Assembly: GCF_023700745.1 (NCBI RefSeq) | Contig: NZ_JAMPYG010000006.1 | Coordinates: 1-64,000, forward strand | Length of the DNA stretch: 64,000 nucleotides | Direction of reading: 5' to 3' | DNA from: Rhodoferax sp. | GTDB taxonomy: Bacteria; Pseudomonadota; Gammaproteobacteria; Burkholderiales; Burkholderiaceae_C | Shown here: positions 11,762 through 55,237 of the stretch, piece after piece | Layout: each line of letters begins with the position of its first letter | How positions within the stretch are numbered: position 1 is the stretch's first letter | Translations under genes and position numbers: made by a program | Notes under the pieces: generated by a model | Told to the model about the DNA's origin: nothing | The model's input: the letters and a program-made list of their open reading frames with translations, nothing else | Database searches by the model: none

Positions 11762-12856
11762 TCACAACGGCAATGCCGGCCCCTCACCGCCCACAGCAAC
11801 GATGGCGCCGCAACCTCGTGTTTCGTAAAGATCCACACGGTCGAGTTGGGGGAGTTGGATGCGCGCCTTTTGGAGTATCCATGCGGCAATACTGGCAGTG
11901 TCGCAATCAGCAAGGTCTGGGATCTCATGCAATGGACGATGGTCCAAAGACTTGAAAATGGGATTGAACAGCTCTTTCACGTCCCCGAAGTCGACCGTCC
12001 AGCCCATCACCTGATCCAACGGCGCAGAAAGGTGAAGACGCAGGGTGTAGGTATGCCCATGAATCCGCCGCAACGGGCTGCCATCGGGCGCACGTTTGAG
12101 CTGCAAGGCACTGTCAAGGGTCAGTTCTTTCCAGATCCGGTAATTTTTTCCATCAAAGTTGGCGCCGCACGAACCCGTTTCAAAAACCGTGATCCAGGAA
12201 AGTTCAGGCAACTCAGGCTTGATTCGCTCCCACAACCAACTCGACAAGATTTCGCTGGTTGGATTCTGTAAGCCTGGCAAGTCGTTCAAACAGGCAAAAT
12301 CAAGTTGCCTTTGCAACGGCGCCCATACCTCGTCAAGCCGGTCGTAATCAATGCTCAGATCACGACTGCCGAGATCCTGATTGGCATGAACGATGACCTC
12401 AAACCCATGCCCATGCATGCGCCCGCATTGATGTCCTGCAGGCACATTGGGCAATCGGTGCGCTGACTGGAAAATGTATCGCCGCCAAACATGCGCGTTA
12501 CCGGCGAGGTCAAGATCGACACCTTCATGCGCCGTGCTTTGGATGCCAATTCGCTCAATCCCGGGAACCTTCAGGTTTTGGCGAACCCAGCGCGCCAGGT
12601 TTTCGTCGGTAGGTTGCGCAAGCTGCTCATTGAGCAAACGGTAATCCAGTTGTGAAATGGCCAACTCAAGGTCGGCTCGGAGCCGGTCAACTTCACCTCC
12701 CGGGAAATGTGCCCATCCTGCAGGAGGCGCGCACCTCACCGTTGCCAGAAAACTGTGTCCGTGCAAACGACGGGAACGGTGGCCTGCCGGCAGGACGTCG
12801 ACATGCCTTGCCGCCTCAAACCCGGCCGAGGCACTGAAGAGGGTCTTGACTTGCAT
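11762..12856 (-). CDS. queD: Triple T-fold QueD (6-carboxytetrahydropterin synthase) fusion
   Basis: Makes 6-carboxytetrahydropterin from dihydroneopterin triphosphate in preQ0 synthesis. QueD is usually about 120 residues; this protein has 364, with three tandem PTPS/QueD modules (about 1-123, 124-240 and 241-364). Module 2 has the zinc histidines H133, H148 and H150, the nucleophile C144 and the pterin anchor E226, but its catalytic Asp-His pair reads D186-F187. Module 3 has an intact D305-H306 and E345, yet has L251 and L262 where the first zinc His and the Cys should be. Module 1 has S28 for Cys, Y72 for His and S107 for Glu. The start at 12856 lies two bases after the queC stop; an open frame continues upstream inside queC. 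Being the only queD in a queC-D-E operon, it is presumably active. Confidence 0.93.
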   Translation of the reverse strand: MQVKTLFSASAGFEAARHVDVLPAGHRSRRLHGHSFLATVRCAPPAGWAHFPGGEVDRLRADLELAISQLDYRLLNEQLAQPTDENLARWVRQNLKVPGIERIGIQSTAHEGVDLDLAGNAHVWRRYIFQSAHRLPNVPAGHQCGRMHGHGFEVIVHANQDLGSRDLSIDYDRLDEVWAPLQRQLDFACLNDLPGLQNPTSEILSSWLWERIKPELPELSWITVFETGSCGANFDGKNYRIWKELTLDSALQLKRAPDGSPLRRIHGHTYTLRLHLSAPLDQVMGWTVDFGDVKELFNPIFKSLDHRPLHEIPDLADCDTASIAAWILQKARIQLPQLDRVDLYETRGCGAIVAVGGEGPALPL

Positions 12857-12858
12857 TT

Positions 12859-13575
12859 TCAAACCATCCCGAAACGCATGTACAGCGGGTCTTTCAGACC
12901 GGCTTCGGCAAAGCCTTTCGCGCGCAATACGCAAGAGTCACATTGACCGCAAGGCTTGCCATCTTCAGCCGGGTCATAACAACTGCTGGTTTCTGAATAG
13001 TCGACCCCCAGACGCATGCCTTCCTGTACGATTTGCGCCTTGGTCAGGCTGATCAGTGGCGTGTGTATCTTCAATTTTTGAAGGCCCTCAACGCCCGCCT
13101 TGGTCGCCAGGTTGGCCATGGTTTCGTAAGCGGCAATGTACTCCGGACGACAGTCAGGGTAACCAGAATAGTCAAGCGCATTGACGCCGATAAAGATATC
13201 CGAGGCCCCCAGGGTTTCAGCCCAGGCCAGTGCAAAGCTCAGGAAAACCGTATTTCGAGCCGGAACATAAGTAACCGGTATGCCGCCTGACATGTCAACG
13301 GCAGTCCGGCCCTTGGGCACAGCGATATCTGCCGTAAGCGCGGAGCCACCAAACTCACGAAGATCGATTTGCGCCACGACATGTTTTGCCACGCCTTGGG
13401 AACGCGCCACAGATTCAGCAGCAACCAATTCCTGGATATGGCGTTGCCCATAGCGAAAACTCAGTGCATAAGGCTCGAAACCCTGCTCTTTTGCGATGGC
13501 CAGAACCGTTGTCGAGTCCAGCCCGCCACTGAGTAAAACGACAGCTCTGGGCCTTGAGGACAGCGCATTCGTCAT
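12859..13575 (-). CDS. queC: 7-cyano-7-deazaguanine synthase
   Basis: ATP-dependent enzyme of 238 residues that turns 7-carboxy-7-deazaguanine into preQ0. The N-terminal PP-loop [13 protein letters not shown] (residues about 16-28) binds ATP. Four cysteines in the C-terminal [12 protein letters not shown] segment bind zinc. It is the first gene of queC-queD-queE. No preQ1 riboswitch could be recognised in the short leader, which begins just after the terminator of the upstream tRNA gene. Confidence 0.98.
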
Positions 13576-13679: not shown

Positions 13680-13756
13680 TGGTGCGGCTGGCAGGAATTG
13701 AACCCACGACCCTCTGGTTCGTAGCCAGATACTCTATCCAACTGAGCTACAGCCGC
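13680..13756 (-). tRNA. tRNA-Arg (anticodon ACG)
   Basis: The 77-base sequence folds into a normal cloverleaf: a seven-base acceptor stem GCGGCTG/CAGCCGC, a D arm, an anticodon stem TCTGG/CCAGA with loop CTACGAA (anticodon ACG, read with inosine for CGN codons), a T arm with GGTTCAATT, and an encoded CCA end at 13680-13682. It stands alone between a haemoglobin gene and queC and has its own terminator. Confidence 0.97.
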
Positions 13757-54961: not shown

Positions 54962-55032
54962 GAGGGGTTCCAGGGCCGGACAAAAAACAATGACCATGGC
55001 GCCTCCCCGGCCAAACCGGAAGCAACATGGTC

Positions 55033-55140
55033 AAAGGTCTTGTCAAGTTTGAAACCGCTTGCGCCATGGTCAAACGATGACCAAGTATGTTGACGCAAGC
55101 CCCTTCGAAGGGCTCGAAAGGAGACTACTCCCCAGTGACG
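55033..55140 (-). ncRNA. yybP-ykoY manganese riboswitch
   Basis: On the minus strand the leader shows GGGGAGTAG (complement of 55125-55133), a seven-base stem GCTTGCG/CGCAAGC (55094-55100 with 55057-55063), an internal ACATACT loop, an inner hairpin TGGTCA/TGACCA, and the 3' AAGACCTTT element (complement of about 55033-55041). These are the conserved parts of the yybP-ykoY motif, in the usual order. It sits 70 bases upstream of the GDT1-type exporter start. In high Mn2+ it would turn expression on. Confidence 0.85.
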
Positions 55141-55237
55141 GTCGGATTTTAACTGACAAAATCAGCGATCCGGCCCGACGCTGTTTGAAGATCCGTTCGG
55201 CCCATGGCCAACACCGGATCTGAACGTCAAGGAACGC

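Follow-up and report, generated by a model that had tools for sequence, protein, structure and literature searches.

The 364-residue open reading frame on the minus strand of the window (the whole 64,000-nucleotide stretch of Rhodoferax sp. DNA analyzed here), with its ATG at 12856 and its stop at 11762-11764, very probably encodes a functional QueD in which three modules fused into one chain form a single composite active site, located at the interface of modules 2 and 3. As the original prediction had proposed, the modules show losses that complement one another; the pattern holds in all 145 fused proteins compared, and together with the finding of no other PTPS gene in the genome it supports one composite site per chain. 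Three stretches of the protein match the Pfam PTPS model (whole-protein E = 7.3e-54), and at 151.1 bits the protein lies above the equivalog cut-off of 89.25 for TIGR03367, QueD (PTPS-I); against the broader subfamily model TIGR00039 it scores 111.2 bits, below the cut-off of 125.5. The features concerned are the following, in window coordinates.

11762..12856, minus strand: fused three-module QueD, 364 aa (ORF translation, Pfam PTPS, TIGR03367)
12503..12856, minus strand: module 1, residues 1-118, without the Cys, the first zinc His and the Glu, His32-Gly33-His34 being kept
12755..12763, minus strand: His32-Gly33-His34 of module 1 (145/145)
12146..12502, minus strand: module 2, residues 119-237, predicted zinc/Cys/PTSE/Glu half-site (Pfam PTPS and conservation)
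12458..12460, minus strand: His133, first zinc ligand by homology (145/145)
12425..12427, minus strand: Cys144, catalytic Cys of the CxxxHGH motif (145/145; motif per PMC5041015)
12407..12415, minus strand: His148-Gly-His150, second and third zinc ligands by homology (145/145)
12251..12262, minus strand: Pro199-Thr-Ser-Glu202, the canonical PTSE segment (145/145 in module 2)
12179..12181, minus strand: Glu226, pterin-anchoring Glu by homology (145/145)
11789..12145, minus strand: module 3, residues 238-356, predicted GWxxDF and Asp-His half-site (conservation)
11987..12004, minus strand: Gly285-Trp286-x-x-Asp289-Phe290, the canonical GWxxDF (Trp286 and Asp289 145/145)
11939..11944, minus strand: Asp305-His306, putative catalytic pair (145/145)
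12859..13575, minus strand: queC (TIGR00364, 204 bits against a cut-off of 150), 2 bases upstream of the start codon
11123..11758, minus strand: queE (TIGR04508, 364 bits against a cut-off of 240), 3 bases downstream of the stop codon

The three PTPS matches and the 364-residue frame agree with the prediction of three QueD modules in one chain, and all of the residues that it named (His133, Cys144, His148, His150, Phe187, Glu226, Leu251, Leu262, Asp305-His306, and Glu345) occupy the positions it gave them. In stand-alone QueD/PTPS-I proteins a chain is a single module that carries the whole residue set; here there are three modules and one set, and, unlike in the stand-alone members, no single module of the window protein carries the complete catalytic set. 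CxxxHGH and the three zinc histidines, which are QueD features, are present in module 2 only, and the Asp-His pair and the anchoring Glu are present but split, with Asp305-His306 in module 3 and Glu226 in module 2; both statements hold for 145/145. In the window protein the motif reads SRRLHGH in module 1, CGRMHGH in module 2, and LRRIHGH in module 3. A PTPS-III (folate) identity was rejected because ExxHGH, the PTPS-III counterpart of the QueD motif CxxxHGH (PMC5041015), is absent from all three. Two of the earlier readings stand in part: module 1 had been said to lack Cys, His, and Glu, and the Cys and Glu are indeed gone, as is the first zinc His (Arg17), but His32 and His34 are still there; and Phe187 does replace the catalytic His of module 2 in the window protein but not universally, as 49/145 have His187.

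The 145 distinct fused proteins comprise the window protein, 91 from loci L005-L113, and 25, 17, and 11 from wider searches, and they span the window's own order, other orders of its class, and lineages beyond the class. We excluded L001-L004, which are the window's own gene, 18 loci that duplicate others exactly, the unfused L145 and L158, L172-L174 (repeats of fused genes already counted), and L175-L176 (own gene, a repeat), and 16 more full-length places in the family search, which have no locus, also lie outside the set; one alignment placed the window protein alongside 73 of the 80 loci L034-L113. Because relatives were gathered by overall similarity, invariance at particular residues was not built in, and very divergent members may have been missed. 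Seven residues (His133, Cys144, His148, His150, Glu226, Asp305, and His306) are invariant in 145/145 at a minimum pairwise identity of 33%, so the alignment of homologues that had been suggested as a check shows the complementary losses to be kept family-wide. A second zinc/Cys set was found in 0/145. The identical architecture of 145 distinct proteins also led us to reject a sequencing or assembly artifact. Glu345, which had been counted among the residues that module 3 keeps, does exist in the window protein, but it is Glu in only 125/145, as compared to 145/145 for Glu226; with Glu226 as the one that is strictly conserved, the protein can probably do without Glu345. In module 1 the equivalent position falls on Gln106 or Ser107 according to how the module is aligned, and there is no Glu at residues 105-108 of that module in any of the 145.

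Comparison with stand-alone QueD, for which 14 of 18 stand-alone QueD-like sequences served as the canonical columns (the 4 with Arg as first zinc His were tabulated separately), indicates that the partition is wider than first seen, PTSE and Glu going with module 2 and the segment from GWxxDF to Asp-His with module 3. Module 2 has kept the zinc/Cys loop, the NPTSE segment, and the Glu and has mostly lost Asp-His; in module 3, where the first zinc His, the Cys, and PTSE are gone, Asp-His remains, and so does the Glu at 0.86. PTSE is universal in module 2 (1.00) and rare or missing in module 3 (0-0.11), and the G, W, and D of GWxxDF are found at 0.99-1.00 in module 3 and at 0.01, 0.01, and 0.88, respectively, in module 2. 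We read this to mean that module 2 would have kept the part that acts on its own subunit's zinc and module 3 the part that reaches the neighbor. In module 1, whose alignment to canonical QueD is less certain, the Pro, Thr, and Glu of PTSE persist in 85-94% (0.85-0.94), beyond what a bare spacer would need, and this counts against that module being purely a spacer.

The ratio dN/dS was taken from two close relatives with unsaturated dS, seven other comparisons being partly or wholly saturated; against L034 and L035 it was 0.15 and 0.09 for module 1, 0.06 and 0.03 for module 2, and 0.03 and 0.05 for module 3, which indicates purifying selection on every module. A recent pseudogene was rejected on these values (0.03-0.15 in all modules), and, in view of the same range together with the 145/145 conservation, the residue pattern is not the product of chance or decay. 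A quick tree was built from 81 module rows, with six long PTPS as the root; in it, modules 1, 2, and 3 each formed one group (SH-aLRT 100, 80, and 100, respectively), nested among stand-alone QueD; because 45 of the 78 forks are open and modules 1 and 3 have long stems, a single origin of each module is suggested rather than shown.

We thus envision the gene product as the host's QueD, a presumed 6-carboxytetrahydropterin synthase, in which the three fused modules would stand in for the three separate subunits that normally make up the homotrimeric ring and in which selection after the fusion would have retained one complete active site per chain. Module 2 would give the zinc triad His133/His148/His150, the catalytic Cys144, PTSE, and the pterin-anchoring Glu226, while module 3, as the next round the ring, would contribute Asp305-His306 and the GWxxDF scaffold, with Cys144 and His306 predicted to be in contact; module 1 would close the ring, in a role that is probably mainly structural. 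In work of Nar from 1994, Cys42 and Glu133 are said to lie in one PTPS subunit and His89 in another, an assignment that agrees with Cys144 and Glu226 both being in module 2. PTPS relatives are hexamers with six sites, whereas fused QueD has one residue set per three-module chain; two chains may stack head to head like PTPS trimers, which would leave two sites instead of six. According to PMC7546909, two trimers join head to head in PTPS and hold six zinc sites, every one of them lying where three adjacent monomers meet; the premise that a PTPS site is shared between subunits is supported by the title of Burgisser 1995, which names an 'intersubunit catalytic triad' (as cited in PMC7546909 and PMC2229834).

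The AlphaFold2 model of the single chain (74 sequences; pLDDT 91.9, pTM 0.89) has three beta-beta-alpha-alpha-beta-beta units, matching the T-fold, and its inter-module joints are 3-residue turns that lead from the last strand of one unit to the first strand of the next. Foldseek ranked P. aeruginosa 2oba and E. coli QueD 4ntk highest (target-length TM 0.92-0.94); with these the fused protein shares the fold, CxxxHGH, the zinc triad, Asp-His, the Glu, and the queC/queE context. Uricase also consists of tandem T-folds in one chain, but its ring geometry differs and it is not known to have such a zinc site; the Foldseek match to uricases (4mb8 and 8oih) is far weaker (TM <=0.40, rmsd 7-13 A, 7-11% identity over 272-331 columns). 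With regard to covariation, a first mean-field run was discarded because shared loop deletions dominated it; in the gap-free analysis the strand control, pooled over three interfaces, was clear (0.55 vs -0.08). Of nine strand pairings tested, the one that joins the end of module 2 to the start of module 3 (its first strand with the last of module 2) showed covariation matched by 1.2% of null windows, and the two other expected pairings, ring closure included, did not rise over the null (18% and 61%). For the site itself, the zinc/Cys loop and the GW/Asp-His region covary only slightly more toward the next module than in reverse, at a level reached in 17% of null windows. Strand order alone leaves the Asp-His donor undecided, and the argument for direction rests on the conservation pattern: in a ring of modules 1, 2, and 3 every site would draw its Asp-His from the same side, the next module or the previous one, and we favor module 3 as the donor because only the 'next' rule completes a site in all 145.

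Alternatively, the composite site could be formed between two chains, with module 2 of one facing module 3 of the other, or its module 2 in some relatives. The PTPS hexamer, in which the sites are reported to sit where three neighboring monomers of the head-to-head assembly meet (PMC7546909), would be in keeping with this, as would the lack of a covariation signal for ring closure within the chain and the 25/145 relatives in which module 2 alone holds the full canonical set of all seven residues, but the short hairpin-like linkers and the single-chain pTM in the predicted model favor a ring within one chain, as does the covariation between the adjoining strands of modules 2 and 3, and we consider an inter-chain site unlikely. 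It is more doubtful still that module 2 takes its Asp-His from module 1, the previous in the ring, with Asp305-His306 retained for structure. Strand order by itself does not settle the direction, and module 1 also has Asp-His in 47/145 (module 2 does in the 25/145 just mentioned), but the complete pair is missing from module 1 in 98/145, the window included, whereas the module 3 pair is present in 145/145, along with the Trp and Asp of GWxxDF, and module 3 is the sole holder in 73/145. A 'previous' rule would need the module 1 pair, which is complete in only those 47, and would give no evident reason for the module 3 pair to be invariant.

A further alternative is that the protein is a degraded or regulatory pseudo-enzyme and that preQ0 comes from uptake or another enzyme; each module of the window protein does by itself lack some catalytic residues. 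Against this stand the strict conservation, the low dN/dS, and the genomic context. Both neighbors exceed their NCBIfam cut-offs, placing the gene between queC and queE as originally read, and a PF01242 search of the genome (3.21 Mb, 94.58% complete) returned three matches, all inside this gene. Another intact queD in the genome would have argued against the composite site, and neither that nor a second PTPS was found in this search of the 94.58% complete assembly, which also has queF, queA, tgt, and GTP cyclohydrolase I. We thus give a pseudo-enzyme very little weight, slightly less than we give module 1 as the donor. Least credible of all is another pterin product, e.g., 6-hydroxymethyldihydropterin for folate (PTPS-III): PTPS paralogues do switch product via changes at the Cys (PMC5041015 and PMC2229834, the latter treating the role of the PTPS Cys), but module 2 has CxxxHGH without the Glu of ExxHGH, that Glu is missing from modules 1 and 3 too, and the gene order is with queC and queE.

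Returning to the single-chain ring with its site between modules 2 and 3, module 1 has the first zinc His in 0/145 and the Cys in 4/145, yet its His-Gly-His is invariant. We mention as a tentative and rather doubtful extension that, in a one-site ring, the other modules were freed for new roles and that the module 1 His-Gly-His may bind a regulator, a second metal, or QueE/QueC. If the proposed arrangement is true, the fusion made a symmetric homotrimer into an asymmetric ring in which two of three sites were given up and the third was split, and the family would be a natural experiment on which parts of a QueD/PTPS subunit work in the neighbor's site, with the direction of contact predicted purely from sequence. 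Annotation tools that proceed module by module could label these modules dead.

By analogy, we regard bimodular QueF (V. cholerae, E. coli) as the nearest precedent. According to PMC5372742, this T-fold enzyme of the same pathway has tandem T-folds, with its motif and its catalytic Cys and Glu in separate domains that are joined as an interdomain site. It differs in having two modules, no central tunnel, and another reaction, fused QueD having three modules and a zinc site; if our reading is right, the queuosine T-fold enzymes would have taken this road twice. Among the matches listed, the titles and abstract openings of the open-licence literature yielded no description of a fused, tandem, or pseudo-trimeric QueD, which is no proof of absence, and the main text of PMC5041015 uses neither the word tandem nor the word trimer.

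Among the relatives retrieved, Rhodoferax assemblies come closest, at 95-96% identity. The related-locus search gave 355 stretches encoding a relative, of which 80 were kept; queE lies downstream on the same strand in 70 of these 80 (no more than 300 bases away in 65, some 1.7 kb away in 5) and queC upstream in 13, counts that are lower bounds because some contigs end early. Within the family, 45 of 250 genomes, the window's own among them, gave full-length matches, at 46 places in all, and the fused gene occurs in 12 further families of the order. In the class draw it was found in 19 of 369 genomes, 17 of them outside the order, and in the phylum draw in 14 of 398, 11 of them outside the class, with at most 5 candidates scored per genome in both alignment searches; such low counts imply that most genomes there are without the fused gene. 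It was present in 24 of 25 chosen genomes, 23 of the 24 having no PTPS match outside a fused gene, although these 25 were picked from genomes with more than one PTPS match and so give no frequency. The exception, G264, has a fused QueD and a separate single-module PTPS (L171 / L145), the latter in a 180-aa frame. Two fused copies occur in a single genome in G349 (L151 and L170) and in G160. On plasmids, no fused copy was recognized among the best 15 of 172 matching records, and the four matches with >80% coverage among those listed consist of ~360-400-base stretches matched repeatedly.

The stand-alone QueD-like proteins with Arg for the first zinc His are encoded at L121, L129, L133, and L140 (G413, G533, G475, and G446, respectively; one family of the order) and still have the Cys, HGH, Asp-His, and Glu. 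Such a gene is the sole PF01242 match in G533 and G446, and neither queC nor queE was found in the 3.3 kb fetched around it. No riboswitch was found near the operon in the window with Rfam at gathering scores; a tRNA gene lies closely upstream of queC (13683-13756, minus strand), and a manganese riboswitch (yybP-ykoY, 108.9 bits) lies at 54965-55145 on the minus strand.
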